The notes under the pieces were generated by a model, which did not search any database, was not told where the DNA came from, and was given only the letters and a program-made list of their open reading frames with translations. Made by a program: the position numbers and the translations under genes. Below, in pieces: positions 20,565 to 62,000 of a stretch of DNA of 64,000 nucleotides; within the stretch, counting starts at the first letter, position 1; every line of letters begins with the position of its first letter. The DNA is from Owenia fusiformis (Eukaryota; Annelida; Polychaeta; Sabellida; Oweniidae), in assembly GCA_903813345.2 (NCBI GenBank), contig CAIIXF020000005.1:14819375-14883374 (forward strand), written 5' to 3'.

Positions 20565-21616
20565 CAAGGGCCGAGCAATATATTCGCTACTTTTTGCTCT
20601 CAAATTGTTATTAATGAAGTATCTTACCTGAAATTTTCCAAAATAATAGAAAAAACATTTTCTGTAATATCACCAAATGTGCATTTATTTGGTTACATCC
20701 GTAATATTTTACATGGCATTGAATATTGGTTGATAGTGACCACCGGAGCTGACATTTGTGACAATGTTTCAGAAAACAACTTTTATACAAAATGTCCTTT
20801 TTGTTAATTAAGACAGTTACTCCTCATTCCATGCCTCATTCTCAAAATAGTGTCCATCTGCAGCTATGCATTTTCTACATCGGGAAAGCCAGTCTTGATA
20901 GGCCTGTTGCAGTCCGTTTCCATTTGCATATAGGTCTTTTAGGGCCTTATGGACGGCCTCAACCACTTCTTCACGGTCACCAAACCTCTGCCCGCGTAGC
21001 TCATTCTTCAGTTTGCCGAAAATTTCAAAGTCGCACAATGCAAGGTCTGGACTGTATGGTGCATGATCAAATTTTTCAATGTTTAGAGCTGCTAATATAT
21101 CAGTTACCTCACGGGCCCTGTGTGATGGAGCATTATCTTGATGATATTTTTATACAAAGTCTCTGTTCTTTTAGATTTGCATTTACCATGCTTGCTTCTT
21201 GATGCAACTCAGGAAGCAGAGTCTCCCTTTTGTGATGCATATGCGGATCAATTGTGACCTCTTTATTGTTTGAAAAGAACATCTATGACATCAGAACCAT
21301 TGTTCTGAATATTGGATCAATGTCCAGTAAACAATGTTTATAAAAATTACCCAAACTGAATGTTTTTGTTATGAGAAATGGTCATATAAAGATATTGTTG
21401 CATGTGCAATTGCAGTAAAATTATGGGCAGCTCCGGTGGCTCATTCCTCCCGTTGCTATGACAACCATAAGTTTATGCCATATTTGGCAATGGGCTTGAA
21501 AATGGAATCAAAAGATGCGGAATTCTACACTCTATGTCTGTACCAAATTTCAATGGAAATAAACAAATATAAAAGAAAATAAAGCAAAAAGTAGCAAATA
21601 TATTGCTCGGCCCTTG
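20565..21616 (-). mobile_element. Mariner-like element, both TIRs, TA target duplication
   Basis: Inverted repeats of over 30 bp: the left end starts CAAGGGCCGAGCAATATATT and the right end is its near-perfect reverse complement (one mismatch within the first 25 bases), flanked by TA at 20563-20564 and 21617-21618. Length 1052 bp, shorter than the usual 1.3 kb. A transposase remnant reads on the minus strand (20817-21145). The upstream half is too degenerate to read, so it is non-autonomous. Confidence 0.9.
20817..21145 (-). pseudogene. Mariner transposase remnant (DD34D), N-terminus lost
   Basis: Reads HQDNAPSHRAREVTDILAAL, then FDHAPYSPDLALCDFEIFGK, then LRGQRFGDREEV and CRKCIAADGHYFE to a stop. 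The second catalytic Asp (codon 21137-21135) and third Asp (21032-21030, CDFEIF) have exactly 34 residues between them, the mariner DD34D signature. A stop interrupts the frame just upstream of HQD, and the helix-turn-helix and first Asp regions are unreadable. Confidence 0.9.
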
Positions 21617-30751: not shown

Positions 30752-33700
30752 CTGCAAACACAAAATGTACCAAAGTTTAATAAATATTCACATATAGAGA
30801 ATTCAACAAATCATGGATGTACCAAAACCGAAGAAGGTTATTTTCTGCATCAGTCATAAACCTTTTACTTTTTGAATTTTTACAATTACAAAGACAAAGA
30901 AATCAATTCATGAAAATATGACACACAATTTTTCAATCTATAAACTGTTATCTTATCTCTCAATACATGATTAAGTTCATAACAATGGTGTCTGTGAAAT
31001 CTACAATTGTTCAGTTGTTCACAGTAGACATTATTAATCAAATTGACAGAGACAAGGATGGTGAATCTTCTATACCAATATCATGTAAGTCCATATAGTA
31101 TTTTGGCATAGGAGTTCAAACATTCCCAATATGTTGCCTATACTTACATCGTGATTTTCAAAGAATTCCTTGTATCCCAAATGAAGGAGGTAGACTTCTG
31201 GGAACTTGAGGGCGGGGTAGATATCTTTATGAGCCTCACGGTCCTTGTTGCGAAGAAACCTCATCCTGAAATACATAAATCAGTTGCTGTTGTAAATACT
31301 CATGTAATTTATCATTTATCTATTATCTTTAACACAGGAAATGTTGTTTGAAAGTTAGGATGTGCATTTGTTCTTACATAACCTTTATTCATCAATGCCA
31401 AACAAAAGCATCAAAAATTCACATGCAAATAAATCTCAAAACAAAATGATGCTGAAGTATATCAATAACACATGATGACTTCACATATAAAGAGAATATC
31501 AAGACATTTTATTTGTAAACTTACAATTTTGGGCCTCTCTCCGATGAGAACTCGCAGTGGAAGATGATGATGTTTCGTTTATCGTCTTCACTGGATGACT
31601 CAACTGGCGTCTGTTGGTTGAGTAGAGTGCCATCTTTTAAAAACTCTTCAATGATCTTGTCCTTTGTGTACAAATTCTTGGCATCCTGAAATTAAACAAT
31701 TTCCGAATAAAATATTGAATAATATTGATATTGTACAAAGTTAAGAGGATCAGAGCTGTATTAAACAAATGATGAATTCAACTGATTAAAAATCTTTGAA
31801 TCGTTTTTTTTTTAGTTTTTTTGAGTCTAATAATATTCATTATCATATTGTAATTTTGCTCACAAAACTATACTGAATTTTGCATTAAAGATGGACACAG
31901 TTCTCTTATTGAATATTAATTTAAGAATTTAAAAAAGTTTTTTGAGATGTAAAATGTACCTTTATATGGCCTCCTTCGTATTCATAAGGGTAGCGGCAGT
32001 CAATGATCATGAACTTCTCGACGACATGAGAGTATTCATTATTAAGCAGCTTTGACATGGTTTCAGCAGTGATGGATTTGAGGTCCTGGTGGCGTCCTTT
32101 GATAGTGGGTAGACAGTATGTTTTACTGCAGTCTCCAATCAGATCTGGCTCCACTGCGCTCTTGGAGAGGGCATCTTTGATGTGGTTTTGTGAAGTGGTT
32201 TCAACCATGGAGAAAGATCTCTGAAGCTTAGCTCTGGCTGGTGACTATAAATATATAAATAAAATAACATGAGATGTTATATTATTTATTGTTTCAGCAC
32301 TGCATAATTTTTGGTCTTGTGTTATTACATTTTCATTTTCTACTGAATATACAATATTACAAATAAAAGGATTACTCTGTTGGTCTACATTTTGAGTCAT
32401 TTTTGGAAAAAACATACCAGAAATAGCATTGGGAGATCATATTCCTAGAAAGTTATGTTTTCATAGGGAAAACTCATAATTTTACAAAGTGTTTTATTTA
32501 ATCAATAGTGAACCTACCTCATCCAATAGCTCAATGCTCTCACAGTCCTTGATGCTCTTGCGTCGTTTGTTCATAATGGGAGAGGCGAAGTCTCTTGTGG
32601 GTTCAGAACGCTTGAAACGAGACCTGATGTCAAATGTCTGTGATTTTTGTTGGAACAGCCTGGGTGCACTCGGTGAGCGGAAGAGCTTCACTTTGGACTA
32701 AAGTATAAAAAATACAAAATCTAAAAATCCTATTTAATTGAATTTTTTTATCCTACAGATTAGAATAGAAAAGCTACAAAAACAATGAATTCATTTTGAA
32801 ATTTATTTTAACAGTTTTTTAACAAGTGACCATTACTTAAAATACAAAAAAGAGCAATATCGGAATATCTTCAACACACAAGTACTTACGGTTTTTGGGG
32901 CGGAGTTATCTGTGTCATGTTCATCGCATGCTGGGCTGAATGAAAGTGTGGGGATACCCGTGTCTGGCTTCCTAGAAATAGGAGCTCCAAGAAGGCTGCT
33001 AAGTCCTGAGGGTACAGCATCCTTAAGATACAACAATACAAATGTTAAACCAATAAACCCAATTATGTTACACAAAATAACAAAGAAATAATAATAAAAA
33101 TCATACAATCATTTGAGAGACACAAACTTAGAATATTCAAACTGCAAAAACAATCCGTTATACAATATTGGCGTTACTTTAAAATAACTGATTTTTCTAA
33201 TTACATTCCATTTTTTATAAGCCTCACAATTTTTAAATAAGCATTCTGATTTTTCAATAAGCATTCTGATGAATATCAACTTACCTCATTGTCATCCCAG
33301 AGTTCAAGAAAGCCATCATCATTATCGTCATCATTAGGGCTGCTTACGAGAGATGATTTCCTCAGAGAGAAGCCCCTCACTTCATTTTCCTTTTCTGGGC
33401 TATCGAATAACTGTAATTGAATGATATCATAAGTCTATGCACTACAGTATGCTAGAATGATTATTATTCATCTGAGTTTTCTTGAATATAAATATTTGTG
33501 AATCACATTGGATAATGCTGTATCAAAGTTTAATTTTTCTATAAATTTACAGTGTACTTTACGTCTAAATATATTTTTTTAACCAATATCTATATCAGCT
33601 AAAATCAAGCTTGAAAAAATAAAAGTTAGATATGTTTAAATATGAAAAGATAACTAAATAGTTTATTAAACAGCAAAACAAACAACATAAAATTGATTAT

Positions 33701-49900: not shown

Positions 49901-52900
49901 CCACATCATTTGAGACTGAATGCTCTATCTTGTATGAGTACTTGTATCTACAACTATTTTTGAGGTTATGAGTATTGGCTATCAATTTCTAATTTTTTCT
50001 TCAATATGTATTGTAATGACTTCAGTATGAATGAAATGTCCCTTGGTCTTCTGGTCTTGTATTGTGATATTGGTTCTTGAATGGTGGGGGGAAAGGGGGT
50101 ATAAGACATTGTTTCTTTTCACGTTAGATCATGGTTTTGGGCCATATGGGGTCTGTTTTTCTTAACTGGTATGCACTTAGAGTTTACTTTTTCTTGCTAA
50201 GTTCCATTACAGCTTTTGGTCCTTTCCCTTTGGCACTTGTGCTTATATATTTGTGTAATTGTCCAATGAATGAATATTTTGGTCTGATTTGAATTTGAAG
50301 ATTTAGTAACTCTGTCTCTGGATTCTAAGTTTAGAATCATTTATCCAACTTAAGATCAGAAACACTGAACTGAATATTTACTTGTATTGAATCTCTACTT
50401 CATGCTACTAAGCAGCATGCATTACACACTATACTCCCAGTAATATTGACTAGCTACTATATTTCGAGTTTTTTAAAAGATTTGGAAATTCACAAAAATT
50501 AATAGCTGCAATATTTCAAAAAACTGAAAATTAGCAAAACATAATAGCCGCGAAGTTTCAAAATGCCAAAAATATGAAATATAATAGCGTCAAATATTAG
50601 CTGGAGTAAAGTATCTTATTTACAATACTAAGCATTGAAATGATATACTCTGACTGTGCATTGAATAGTTTGCATTTTATGATACAAAGCATTGGATACT
50701 TAATTCAGAATATTAAGCATTGAATATTAACTTCTAAATACGTATTGAATATCTTCTTTAATTAGTACAAAGTATTCAATGTTTACTTCAAAATATAGCC
50801 TTGCCCAAGTTGGCCTCTTTTACTTATCTTGATTTCTATTATGACTGCCGGTAATAATTCAAGATCAGATAAGTAAAAAATCCTGACTTGGGCAAGGCTA
50901 TTCAAAATACTATGCATGGATATCTTTGAATATTCTCTTCAAGATTCTAAGCATTGGATATTTAATTTACAGTATTATGTTCTGAATATTTACTTCGAAG
51001 CATTTGATATCTTCTTAGCATACAAAGCATTGAATATCTTCATGATTCTAAGCATCAAATATTTACTTCATAGTTCTAAGTTCTGGATATTTACTTCAAA
51101 GCACTGAGCACTGGAAAGGGTAAAATGTCCTCTTCGCTAAACAAAGTACATATACTGTCTAATGAGAGAGGGAGGTCAAGTACATGTTCAAGGCAAGGTC
51201 ATCTCCTGCCTCTTTAGTTTTGAACCATCCATTGCAACATGGACAAACGACCCTTAGGAGTTTCCCTTTATAGTCAACAACCTTTGACTCTTTAGAGCAA
51301 AGAGGGCATTTGTACATCGCTGTTTGTAGACCTTTCAGGGATGACATCAGTTTTGATGCCAAGCTAGGTCCTTGCTGCTTGTATGCATCAATCTCACTTT
51401 GCTTTAAGTCATCCTGGGTCCACTTCACATCTATAAACTCAAGGCCAAGGATATCAGCATCCCGTACTCTGAAGAAACCCCCATCAGCCCAGTCGCTGCC
51501 CCAGGAGTTCATCATGCGCAAACATTCACCGTTGTAGCTGGTGAGAACAACTGCATGGCCAATAACTTCAGCAACATAGGAACGTTGTGTGATATTGAGA
51601 TCAGATTTTGTTAAGATACCATCAGGGTGTTTTTTGTAAAAGTCTGAGAATAAGTCCCATTCATGATCCGTCAGTCGGAACTGGACAAGCACTGGGCGTT
51701 TTGCAGTGATAGCTTTCAAAGCTTTCAAAAGGTCCATCTTTTCGCAGTGTAGTCGATATCCTAGACACATCTCTTCTAGCACACGCAATACATTGACTCC
51801 TTTCTCAATATTCTTGTCGATCATCTGTTTACGCAGATCAAAGAAGTCTGGATAGCCACCTTCACGGCCAACAATTCGCTTCATTGCAAGGTGTAACACT
51901 GCTGCAGAGGCATTGGCGTAACATGCCCTTTCTTTATTTCCCTTGGCACTGAAGTCTTGGTTGACTTGGTTGATGTAGAGATCAAGGGAGACTGAGGCGA
52001 GCATATCAGAAAGTGAATCCTGGCAACACACAACATTTCTTGCCAGGTCACAAACATCTTCGATCATATCAGGATGATTCACTTGAAAGAACAGATGTGT
52101 TTCATTGTTCTCTATATCAATGTTCCATCCTCGTTTCACAAATATTGTGCGTGGTATCATTTGTGTTGTGATCGTGGAGCTCATTTTGAACATGAATTTT
52201 GCAGGTTTTTCCCAACATTCAGATGCAACACTGTAAAGGCGGCGTGGATCTGCAATTGCTTTGTTGGTGATGTAACAACATATTATTGTCACATCATAGT
52301 TGGATAATTCCCTCAGAGGGGGGTTATATCCATCACCAGGCTCCCCATCAGAGAGAATAAAGAGCAGCTTATGGTGTTGCTTGAATTCAGGCTTGCTGAA
52401 CAGGGATACAGATTCCTTCATTGTTCTCATCAAGGGAGTACCACCATATATAAATGGCTTCACCGTTTCCATCAGTTCATCAACACGATGCTTAGTAAGT
52501 TCCTCCTCTTCACCTATGGACCCATGTAGTATTTCTGATGCCTTTTGTACATTCATCACTGCGGCTGGACTGATACCAACCAGAGACAATTCATGGGCAA
52601 GTTTTTTTCCTTTATCGACTGCTTTCTGGACAGCATCCTTTGTGGCATATTCCTGGGCACCATCAAAATATCCACCCATGAAGAAAAGACCTTCCTTACC
52701 ATAAGACCTTAATGAACGCTCGAGTTCTTTGCATTCCTTTGGTAAACATTCATCCACAAATCTTCTTCTGAAGTCTGAGCCATTTAAGAGTTTCCCAAGG
52801 AACATACTAGCTTCTGTGTCTGTCACAACACTCATCAAGACATTCATTTTGGCCCATGTCCTTACTCTTGGTGCGCCGTTTCTTTCAAGGATGGATAATA

Positions 52901-55900
52901 TTTCATTAAGTATTCCCCATTTACTCAAACTTCTTCTCTGGCGGTTAGCAGAAGATTCCGATTGGGCTTTCTTTATGGTATTTAACATGTCAAATACTTG
53001 CGGTTCATAGCGTGCTCCGACTCCCAGGCCAAATACGTGATTCTTTTTAGTAACATCATGTTTTATTAGACCATCTAGGACTTTGAAGATGGACCGTGCC
53101 CAGCTTCCACCCTCCTCATCAACTGGGCCACCAATATTTCGCTCCATGGATTCTGACACGTCTACTAGAATGCCCGTTAGGGTTGCCATTTCTTGATAAA
53201 TCTGAAAGAAGAAATCAAATTTGAATCTTTGTCCTAGAAATTTTTTTCCAATCCAATGGGACCTGTGGAATGTGTTCAGATAAAGCAGTGGTTCATTTTA
53301 AGGTTTCTCAAAATGTCAGTCAATGGGAGATAGCAAAATTGAGATTAAGAAAATAGTGTTCACATTGAGAGGTCTCAGATTAAAGAGGTTTTTTGATGCA
53401 TAGGTTTTACTGTATTTGTTTTGTAGCTTTCTGGAAAAAGATTCTCTCAAGTTTGAAATACTGAAGGACATTCTTGACCATGTAGAATATGATATAATAA
53501 TCATTGAACATTCTTACCGAAGTTCGGTCCAATATCGGGAAACCGTGACACCTCTATTTATATGACACAGCTCAAAAAAGACATCAATTAAACAACACAA
53601 AGCAATCAAAACATCCATAAACACAAGTTTCTCATTGAAGTTAGAAACTACCTGATCAGTTGACATAAATCGCTAAACATCGGTATTGTCAATTTTTGCT
53701 AATCTGAACACTTGGCCAGTTTAAGTTGTGTTCGGATAAGACAGGTTTAGCAGAAATTAAAAAGATGATCAGCTGAACAATCTCAAAAATAAGTGATTTG
53801 GTAAAAATGTGAAATTTATGTTTCTCAGAACAGAACCTATTTATTGAACTTACCACAATTTTACTTCACTTTCATATCATCAGTTCAGAGTAGTTTCTCA
53901 GTTTGTCTCAGTGAAGAAAATGCTGTATACTTTTATGGCCTAAAAAGGTAGAATTTTAACTTCGGGGAAATATTTAACATAATGCGTAGACTGTTTACAA
54001 GTTAAAATGTCTGACAAAATGTTTATTTTTGAGATCAGGTGGCAGTCAGGTTTTCAATATATTGTCTTTTTGCCAATAAATCTCTATTCTTCGGGGAAAT
54101 AATGTATTGAATGCATTGTTGAATATCACTGGCGGATCCAGGAGCTCACAAGGGTGGCACACATTTGAAATTGGAAAACAATTTTGGGCCCCTAAAACCA
54201 CCAAATATTGGACCCAACTTAAAAAATTAAGGCCCTTTTTAGCTCACATGGTGAGCTATTGCAATCACTCACTTATCCGTCTGTGATAAAGACAAAGGGG
54301 AGTGTTACCGGTAGAAAAAGCTTTAACCCACCGACGTGTAGTCACAAGTCTGTAGACCCGACACCAAACAAGACCAAAGAGGAAAAGTAATAGGGAGAAA
54401 GAAGACTGAGAAAGAAGAAACTAAAGAGGACAAGAAAATAACAACAACAGAAACAAAGAAGAAGAAACTAAGACAGAGTGAAAGAAAAAGACAGAAGAAT
54501 CAGAAGAAGTAAGAAGAAAACAACAGCAACTACAAATAGATTTTTAAGCTGGACTGCATGAAGATGACATAAACAGCATATAAACAAGATGTCTATCCGT
54601 CTGTCAACAATTGGCCAATTTTAACACCTCTGTCAATAGGATTCTCGTTTTAAGTTATTTTTGTTCAACATCAATATAGAAAACCCCCCTTTGACTCCTT
54701 GTTCAAAAGCTCGCCATTTTTGTCTCGCAAAATTCACGTTTGTCCTATTTCCTAGCTTTACTGTTTTACTTTCTTGTTTTAAATTATTTTGGTTCCTCTT
54801 TAATACAGAAGCTCCTCTTGTGAGTCCAGGTTCAAAAGCTTGCCTATTTGCCTATCAAAGTAAGAGGAAGAACTGGAGATCAATGATTTCCCACAAACTG
54901 CAAGGTGGAAGGTCACATCAAAGGAAGCCCTTGTCCAGATCTGTGAATACGTGGGACCTACTAACCACCAGGGAAGGGTCCAATTGGAGAGGAGGATGAC
55001 TGTAAGCTGTACCATACCCTTCCATTGAGGCACCCAGGGAGGTGACCATCAGATGGCCAGGAAAGAAGATACAGACAATATAATCGAATTTACAGTCTTC
55101 GTATGCATGACATTTTAAGAACCATGCAATCAATTTGTGTGCTCAAATTCATATGCTCAGTTTCATATAAAATCATGAATCAATAAATGAAGAAAAAGAG
55201 GATATCCTACGATTTTTGAGGGATATCATTTTTATCTATGAGTCGATATCGCTTATCTCCACAAATGAGCGCAGCGAATGAGTTGAGATGGGTGATATCT
55301 ATGAGTGGATTTACAAATGATAGCCGAAGAAAATTATAGGATATCCTATTTATCCTATGGCTGCTGCTTTTGCTTTGAATAATTTTACCAAAGTGAGTTA
55401 TCATGTTTCAAGAAAAGCCTACATAATAATTCACAATAAAATCAGTGTAACCACATAAAATTCAAAATCTCAAGCATTTAAACTGAAAAGGCGTTATACA
55501 AAGTGCATGAAAACATTTGAATCATTTTGATAAGCACATAATTCTTGGAACTATATTCTGACAATCCAATCAGGCAAGGCAGTTATTTGTCAAACCATTT
55601 TTGGCGCTAAGCTAATGAAAAAACTAGTATCCGTCGGATATGATTGGATATCACATCATATGGATGGGATACAATTTTAGTGGCGCATACCAAAAATATC
55701 TTGTGTTGTTATCAACATATATATTTAGTATCCATGGGATAAAGGAAATATTTATTAGAAAAATGATTATACTGATATCTAAAATGGTCTGTGATTATTG
55801 CGTTTTTCAAATGGTAACAATAATTCTGAAAAGTCCTGAATATGGTAGGTCTTGTTTCTTGAACTTCACTTTTTTATATCATCATTGCAGACTAGTTTCT

Positions 55901-58900
55901 TGATCCGTCTCTTTGAAGGAAATGCTGCTAATACTTTTAAAGACATTCGGAGAAGTGTTTAACATAATGCGTAGACTGTTTACAAGTTTAAAATGTAAAA
56001 CACAGTGTTTGTTTTGGAGATAAGGTGAAAGTCAGGTTTATAATTTTGTTGTTTTTTGTCAATAAATCACTTTGCTTTATTGTGTTGAATGCATTGAATA
56101 ATCTGGGAATTTTATGAGCAGTTACATGAAAATTGCAGTGACATCTATTTAAGGTGTAAATAAAATTTATTTTATTGACTTCCAAACAAGGAAAATGCAA
56201 AAATGATATTTTGAATATTTAGGATCAAATGTATGCATGTTTTAGGGTAAACAGTCATTTGAGTCCAAAGAACATTTGAGGCTTCTGACTCATTGAAAAA
56301 ATAATGTTTGATGCAGTGTGGGTCTTAGGATTTTTCTGTCAGTTAACAAGTGGCAATCGACTTGTGTTTTCACACTCGCCAATGAAAAATTTCACTCGCC
56401 ACAGTGTTGCCATTAAAAGAAAGTAATATGTCAGCTTTATGAAAGCTTTCATGTTTTTCATGTTAGACAGTGTGGTTGGGCACTTCAATTTTACACTCGA
56501 CTCTAAATATTTACATCTGCCTGGGGCTACTGTAGAGTGGATATGACCCACACTGTTGATGTTGGTAACAAGTTGATGTTAAGATAAAGATTTATATATT
56601 AGAAAATAGTCATCTTCCCAGCTTGGAATCGAAAAAACAAAAATTACATAATACGGTCCACCAAGTTGAAAATCTGTTAACACCCTTCCAATGCTTCAAA
56701 TATTGCGATATTTAATACCCGAACAAGTGAAATTAGAATATTGCCCCCTGTTGATGTCACTGAATATAGTATAATAGTTAATAAATATTCTTTTATCCAT
56801 CTAGGTCATTGACACCGAATCTGCAAACAATCTGCGTAAGTTGGTTTCCTGCACGACAGACTGGGCAGCACAGGTGGAGGAATACGAAGAAAGTACAGAA
56901 CAAGTCAAGCAAGAGTTCAACAGATACAGGCGTAGGCTCCAACTCTCTGAATGTGAGGAACTAGAAAAGCAAGAAGTAAAAAGGTAAGATTTAACTTACA
57001 TATATATGGGGATTATAAAGAAGAATCACTGAATAAAAGAGATTTTGCAATTCACTGTTGATTACATCATCATGATTTATTGACCAGGTTTTGATGTCCA
57101 TAAGTGCGATATTGTTATTATCTTTGTATATTTATATGGTGTCTCGTAAGCCGATGTCGGCTGTTGGTTTTTTGTAACACATGTATTTTAGTTAAGCTGT
57201 GACATAGAAATAAACTATTATTAAACTCAAACTAATTATAAAGCGTCTTTTTGTAAGAATATCACACTTAAGGACGTATAGAGCTGCACGGTGAATGATG
57301 ACGTAATATATCGCTTCATAACTTAGTTATATGTATATGGGAATAATAAACATGCTATAAGTGAGTTGCGAAATCTCTCCATTGGCAAAGGAATAATCCT
57401 TATCGATTTAAAATTCAAAAGTCAAGCATAAATCGTACAAACATTTTACGAAATATCACATCAAGTTTTACAAATCCCTTCCTCCTTTTCTCTCACGTGT
57501 AATTAATGGAAATGAATTGACTTGAACGGGTAAGCACAATCTAAAGTAACAAATAAAGGCAAATACATAATCAACATAAAGTAACATATAACATGTTTCT
57601 CTTTAGGGAGAAAGAGACAGATAAGGTCCTGATAGCAAAACGAGAGAAGCACATTAGCTATGGCAAGAACACGGTTGGATACGAGAACTACGTTAAACTA
57701 GTACCATTGTAAGAAACGTGAATTTTATTTACATTCTAGAATTATTTTTAGATAAAGTATGATTAATACGCTCAATTTACAAAATGACTTCAACTTATTT
57801 GTTCAATACTAGCTGTATCACAATAGCTGTCTATGTATCACCTAGTGCTGCCATCTTTTCAGATTGCAGGTTGTTATTAACATACAACTTATTTTGATTT
57901 GAAAGTGTTGTGGTTACTTTGTTCAAGAGCTTCGGACGCCTATTCTCTAGAATTTTATTTTAAATCAATACGTTTATTTCATAAATACAAATCTACATTG
58001 AATATACAGCATTGGGACAAATCACCTCCCAGCGTATAGTGCCCACCATATGAGAATTATGGAAAACAATTTTATGGATCATTTATAAACATCAATTTAT
58101 TTTACTATCTTGTACTTGTCAATAAAATTAAAAATAATATATGTTGTTATTGTAGTGGGATGAGAACAAGGGATCACCCAAAGACCCCTAATAAATACAG
58201 GAAATGTAGCAGGCGATCATGGGACACACAAATCAAGATATGGCGACGTGCCCTCCATTTCTATGACGGTCTAACTGGCAAACGGTAAGCTCTTGCTAGA
58301 CTTCTATTTTAGAGATTTGATTAAATGGTATTAGATCTAAAAGTGGTTACTCCGGGGTTTCATCCGATGATCATTTTTGTGGAAATTTTAGGGTGTCAAT
58401 TTGTTTTGGTTACATTTTAAGAGGCACATCTCAGTACATTAAAATCTCATGAGGTACAGCACCTTCAATTAATTATTATACCAAAATGCTCATTCAATAA
58501 TTCAATATGGCTCCAAAATATTAGAAAAAATGCAAAACCTAAAATATTTTACACTAAAATTTACAAAATCCAAAAATATTACACTAAAAATTAACTAAGT
58601 TAAATGAAGCCACAGACCCCTCAACATGTTCATTACATTGAATTGCTAGAGTTATTTTATTGGCAAGTTTTAACTTTTCTTCCTCTCACACACAAAGTGC
58701 TGTATTATTGTCATCTTGTCTTGTTAACTTGATGGGTGTGTGAGTGGACATCTCAAGAAAGCAATAAAACCATTTATCAGCTGAACTTGATACAATACGA
58801 TTAGATTTAATTTTTAGGCAAACAGCATAATTTATAAAACGAGACATGCATTCTTCTTGTCATGTTTTTATCTTGTTAACCCTCACATTATGTGATTCAG

Positions 58901-61500: not shown

Positions 61501-62000
61501 NNNNNNNNNNNNNNNNNNNNNNNNNNNNNNNNNNNNNNNNNNNNNNNNNNNNNNNNNNNNNNNNNNNNNNNNNNNNNNNNNNNNNNNNNNNNNNNNNNNN
61601 NNNNNNNNNNNNNNNNNNNNNNNNNNNNNNNNNNNNNNNNNNNNNNNNNNNNNNNNNNNNNNNNNNNNNNNNNNNNNNNNNNNNNNNNNNNNNNNNNNNN
61701 NNNNNNNNNNNNNNNNNNNNNNNNNNNNNNNNNNNNNNNNNNNNNNNNNNNNNNNNNNNNNNNNNNNNNNNNNNNNNNNNNNNNNNNNNNNNNNNNNNNN
61801 NNNNNNNNNNNNNNNNNNNNNNNNNNNNNNNNNNNNNNNNNNNNNNNNNNNNNNNNNNNNNNNNNNNNNNNNNNNNNNNNNNNNNNNNNNNNNNNNNNNN
61901 NNNNNNNNNNNNNNNNNNNNNNNNNNNNNNNNNNNNNNNNNNNNNNNNNNNNNNNNNNNNNNNNNNNNNNNNNNNNNNNNNNNNNNNNNNNNNNNNNNNN
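61501..62000. other. Assembly gap (500 N)
   Basis: Exactly 500 N, probably a placeholder of arbitrary length; the order of the flanks depends on scaffolding. Confidence 0.98.

Follow-up and report, generated by a model that had tools for sequence, protein, structure and literature searches.

The window, meaning the whole 64,000-nucleotide stretch of Owenia fusiformis DNA analysed here, holds a gene whose coding sequence lies entirely in one exon on the minus strand and whose product combines VWA motifs, a papain-like C1 domain and a zinc ribbon (Table 1). The first-pass annotation had reported an uninterrupted 676-codon frame with these three parts in this order, giving no strand; the ATG-to-stop frame, the order of the parts and all 12 residues named in them were recovered. 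The plus strand of the same interval contains many stops in the same frame register, and at the base composition of the window an open run of 676 codons would arise by chance with a probability of about 2e-23. The frame is also kept in paralogues, with a dN/dS of 0.22 between the window gene and one of these (L002) and of about 0.1 against L005, where synonymous sites are near saturation. In both the window gene and L002 a pyrimidine-rich AG stands 14 nt upstream of the ATG and suggests that a non-coding first exon precedes the coding one; similar AG sites at -22 in L005 and -23 in L011 bring the total to four of the six copies examined in this genome, no such site being found in the other two (L009 and L010). 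The candidate splice-type AG before the ATG of the relative L007, described below, is weaker than those of the O. fusiformis copies.

Table 1. Features of the gene and its product in the window (positions are those of the window)
Feature	Residues	Coordinates	Strand	Basis or remark
Single coding exon, VWA (putatively split) + C1 papain-like + zinc ribbon	676 aa	51159..53189	-	
Possible 3' splice site (TTCTTCTTTCAG)		53202..53216	-	14 nt before ATG; same distance in L002
VWA first part, DxSxS of putative MIDAS (D10, S12, S14)	1-76	52962..53189	-	motif
Helical block, one copy here, repeated in C8 paralogues	87-157	52719..52931	-	profile; no Pfam family
VWA second part, T251 and D281	230-400	51990..52502	-	Pfam + motif
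Predicted C1 papain-like domain, C423, H545, N561; Asn418 at likely oxyanion position	403-595	51405..51983	-	Pfam + profiles
Putative zinc ribbon, C628, C631, C649, C652	625-660	51210..51317	-	motif

Several other features lie in the window. Just downstream of the stop of this gene, at 50674-51103, a 67-nt AT-rich repeat occurs three times with short 28-nt tandem runs inside, and upstream of the gene two diverged duplicate segments (53870-54091 and 55872-56077) stand about 2 kb apart. Further away on the minus strand are Cdc25-like phosphatase exons (31524-32697; M-inducer_phosp 21.6 bits against a cut-off of 25, Rhodanese 19.4 against 22.2), which carry the motif HCEFSSERGP, presumably the Cdc25 active site, and a transposase remnant (20820-21149; DDE_3 20.5 bits, below the cut-off of 28.6). 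The Cdc25-like exons, like the genome size of 498 Mb, suit an animal. Exactly 500 N at 61501-62000 may mark an assembly gap or sequence that was withheld.

A family search of the 498 Mb genome (G000) gave 16 matches, comprising five long copies and fragments. The long copies are the window gene on C5, L002 on C9, which is 80% identical to the window protein, L005 on C6, and the pair L003 and L004, about 28 kb apart on C8; fragments also lie on C8 near 21.04-21.06 Mb, and two of these pieces hold stops. Paralogues keep the domain order of the window protein. The Cys-His-Asn triad is kept in three of the five long copies (window, L002 and L005); in L003 and L004 the catalytic Cys is missing and Gly stands in place of Asn. 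Triad-less L004 is an open frame of 1464 codons; its neighbour L003 has one in-frame stop near the N-terminal third, as placed from ORF coordinates, and Tyr at the third ribbon Cys. L005 (853-3039) carries a glycine-rich hydrophobic insert between its helical block and second VWA part, which reaches 19.2 bits with the Pfam Gly-zipper model (cut-off 25) and is possibly membrane-seeking. Ordinary C1 genes of the same genome gave 96 Pfam C1 matches at E <= 0.001, in separate pieces, and none of the places of the present family was among the matches listed in that search, so genes of this kind can escape annotation.

The architecture had been taken in the first reading as an unnamed one; it fits, by the two stated features, C1A peptidase and vWFA domain, the ‘vWFA-C1 peptidase’ lineage named by Kordis and Turk in 2023 for animal C1A peptidases that are longer and carry such a domain (PMC10380794). 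In the available text of that paper the lineage is described as widespread in protostomes and basal metazoans and as occurring in fungi and choanoflagellates too, and its scattered occurrences in other groups are considered by the authors to be horizontally acquired; that text yielded no functional data on the lineage. The words zinc, cytosol and intron are absent from the main text of PMC10380794, and the helical block, triad loss and repeat variation described here go unmentioned in the text available of it.

All five residues of the MIDAS previously reported as complete (D10, S12, S14, T251 and D281) are in place; a distance of more than 230 residues separates the DxSxS motif at residues 10-14 from Thr251 and Asp281. 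The Pfam VWA model scores 19.2 bits on the whole window protein (P0001), just under the curated cut-off of 23.8, and has no match to its first VWA part alone. With the middle cut out, VWA scores are 23.1, 25.6, 23.0 and 23.3 bits for P0001 and the family proteins P0002, P0003 and P0007, compared with 21.0, 23.1, 19.9 and 23.2 bits for the second part alone, a gain of only 2.1, 2.5, 3.1 and 0.1 bits, respectively; whole P0003 has no Pfam VWA match at E <= 1 and reaches its score once the block is removed. The VWA_CoxE model rises on removal of the middle from 11.1 to 16.8 bits in P0002 and from 15.2 to 20.8 in P0007, and gives 13.6 and 12.9 bits for P0001 and P0003 so shortened, with no match to the second parts of these two alone. 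Since the gain is modest, the DxSxS motif lies outside the best-scoring VWA stretch in all four proteins and the first part of P0001 goes unmatched, a VWA domain split by an inserted block is best regarded as a reading of the motifs, to which the profiles lend modest support.

The block itself, of about 70 residues between the two groups of VWA motifs, was absent from the earlier reading. A profile built from four single-block copies finds one block each in P0001, P0002 and P0003 and seven blocks in the L004 copy (i-E <= 0.007), and no Pfam family matches the block over its cut-off. When the genome was searched with one block and the best candidates scored, 15 of the 16 matches at E <= 1 fell at family places, the remaining one lying on C4 with an E of 0.56. 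In L007 a block is not firmly assigned: part of a nine-copy profile matches there with E 0.0025, and the four-copy profile gives 0.63. A match to Crov588 in a profile search of the PDB (E 5.5e-4) was rejected as a repeat artefact because no single stretch of it passed.

Helical blocks vary in number and change faster than the rest of the protein. By part, the dN/dS between the window gene and L002 is 0.16 for residues 1-85, 0.35 for 86-170, 0.26 for 171-400, 0.17 for the C1 part and 0.23 for the ribbon end. Nonsynonymous to synonymous changes number 38:20 in the block and 133:147 elsewhere for the same pair (P = 0.014), and about 54:14 in the blocks and 18:22 elsewhere for L003 and L004 (P = 0.0003), these being rounded counts with boundaries set after the per-part dN/dS had been seen, and the L003 copy being interrupted by its in-frame stop.

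Cys423, His545 and Asn561 are all present in the protease domain as first proposed, and Trp563 is kept as well. Pfam C1 scores 20.4 bits on P0001, just under the curated cut-off of 20.7, and exceeds it in P0006 (22.4 bits) and P0007 (21.4 bits). His545 and Asn561 align gap-free to positions 159 and 175 of mexicain and papain (profile search, E 7e-4 and 1.8e-3), an alignment that covers these two residues and not Cys423. Likewise, in an hhalign comparison with eight bacterial C1 proteins the local match takes in the His/Asn part only (96.5%), and in the global alignment Cys423 falls at another position. All three residues map against two rhizobial C1 proteins, L038 and L040, which were chosen after inspection (66% probability). 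With the His/Asn part removed from that comparison, the part before the His scores 25.1, a value reached in none of 200 column shuffles (highest 23.7), though its hhalign probability is 10%. AlphaFold models of the full protein with L007 (mean pLDDT 31.8) and of the C1 part with L007 (46.3) are both unusable, so that the assignment of the triad depends on profiles of the sequence; a Foldseek search with the latter gave 97 matches at E <= 10, none of them at E <= 0.001, with no papain-like chain among the best 50 of the 97. The C1 fold around Cys423 is a predicted one, in which the Cys is assigned less firmly than the His and Asn.

Compared with papain and the cathepsins (C1A), the window protein shares the spacing of His and Asn and the NSWG context. 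It differs in the added VWA and zinc ribbon, in having no visible signal or propeptide, in the distance from Cys to His, which is 122 residues here and 134 in papain, and in having Asn at the likely oxyanion position. This residue, Asn418, stands five residues before Cys423, where P0002, P0003 and P0007 have Gln, and the oxyanion-hole Gln is accordingly absent from the window copy. Because the NKERAC sequence before its catalytic Cys has lost the Gln and Gly of its paralogues, the window copy might be weakly active or a binder that does not cut, a reading that we consider improbable. The full loss of Cys and Asn in two paralogues, one of them still an open frame, lends it some weight, whereas the retention of Cys423, His545, Asn561 and Trp563 and the constraint on the C1 part speak against it. 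In papain the oxyanion Gln lies six residues before the catalytic Cys, and the register of five in this family makes the role of the Gln itself presumptive.

The terminal ribbon cysteines C628, C631, C649 and C652 are present as first described; the ribbon is a motif call, and Pfam ribbon matches in the relatives are all sub-threshold. The earlier remark that no secretion signal is visible agrees with hydropathy, the one measure used, which is modest at the N-terminus with no obvious hydrophobic stretch. Neither a signal peptide nor a propeptide was seen there, the VWA motif beginning already at residue 10.

A bacterial origin by transfer, which the first-pass annotation had raised, is not supported by the database searches. 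P0001 has no match among 50,697 phage records, and no relative appeared in viral contigs scanned with peptide patterns from P0001 (16 stretches), A2 (30) and A3 (600); four phage-like loci picked up there with a DNA pattern of the GREGGYP(D/E)F type are unrelated. Among prokaryotes of 84,980 species, 43 pattern matches included one relative, L007, these peptide-pattern scans of viruses and prokaryotes being of a kind that reaches close relatives only. The product of L007 has 743 residues in one frame with the same domain order; its overall identity to the window protein is 37%, and in the C1 part 49%. Its contig (L007 1-5835, the 5.8 kb JAHFTJ010000057.1) belongs to a Chlamydiae MAG. Open frames of at least 100 aa cover 38% of it, compared with 93%, 96% and 97% of three other stretches of that MAG, and such a gene occurs in one of 116 Chlamydiota genomes, the MAG itself; on these two grounds the contig is probably eukaryotic DNA and a binning error in a public genome. 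PADLOC and NCBIfam profiles gave nothing at E <= 1; among the PHROGs, a single peptidase family matched at 0.0075 and two further families more weakly. A VWA protein on a Calothrix plasmid (E 2e-3, 31% over 16% of P0007) was taken as a generic VWA protein. Recent acquisition of the gene from a bacterium or virus thus appears highly improbable: the single coding exon, where ordinary C1 genes of this genome match in pieces, the weak Calothrix match and the other C1A transfers reported in the text available of PMC10380794 would suit it, yet no close prokaryotic relative emerged from the phage, prokaryote and Chlamydiota searches, and the lineage is reported there from metazoans, fungi and choanoflagellates.

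We tentatively propose, with a probability of about 0.4, that this member of the vWFA-C1 lineage works in the cytosol as a cysteine protease and that binding controls its activity. Through the MIDAS of its VWA domain it would contact a partner or ligand in a metal-dependent way, and the helical block between the two MIDAS motif groups would serve as a variable contact surface. Binding at the block would then bring a target, the putative substrate, to the C1 active site of Cys423, His545 and Asn561, or open that site, while the zinc ribbon and the conserved C-terminal tail would keep the protein attached to a partner. Paralogues without the Cys and Asn may bind without cutting or serve as decoys.

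A different reading takes as its model bleomycin hydrolase, a C1B enzyme of the cytosol: the protein would be a constitutive cytosolic peptidase of routine protein turnover, in which the VWA serves only to keep a proteolytic complex assembled and nothing is sensed. That the C1 domain and second VWA part are the most constrained, and that the lineage is old and broad as far as the available text of PMC10380794 describes it, would fit such an enzyme; copy number, block number and triad loss differ strongly within the genome, however, which is unusual for a housekeeping function, and we think this reading credible though doubtful.

Binding-steered proteolysis could also serve defence, with the blocks recognising invaders, the protease as effector and triad-less copies as decoys, although such a cytosolic immune or conflict sensor seems unlikely and an immune role for the window protein is a guess. 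The variable number and faster change of the blocks are an indirect sign in its favour, and the two triad-less and the broken copies on C8, which resemble gene birth and death, also suit it; the faster change may, however, reflect blocks that are simply less constrained, and their dN/dS between the window gene and L002 is not above 1. Fusions of vWA with protease effectors occur in conflict systems of bacteria; the MoxR-vWA ternary systems, as described in the portions available of PMC7159879 and PMC8195603, likewise carry in a single polypeptide a vWA and an effector that is sometimes a protease. These have a MoxR ATPase partner and a vWA with helical flanks, whereas the helical block of the window protein lies inside the VWA region; against a role as immune or conflict sensor, PADLOC gave no match and Pfam found no adaptor or NTPase domain in the protein.

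The window gene is genuine and conserved, and it belongs to a known protease lineage that is named in print, has its function left blank in the available text of PMC10380794 and has genes that annotation can pass over. The part worth pursuing is the helical block and its variation, and the genome offers material for tests of function in two closely similar active-looking copies, a copy whose insert is rich in glycine, and protease-dead copies that have many blocks. As a speculative and unlikely extension, the blocks may form a modular, expanding recognition surface, cytosolic sensor-proteases gaining blocks between the MIDAS groups and protease-dead copies serving as decoys. If true, this would be an unrecognised family of animal intracellular defence proteins in which the sensor is inserted rather than appended.
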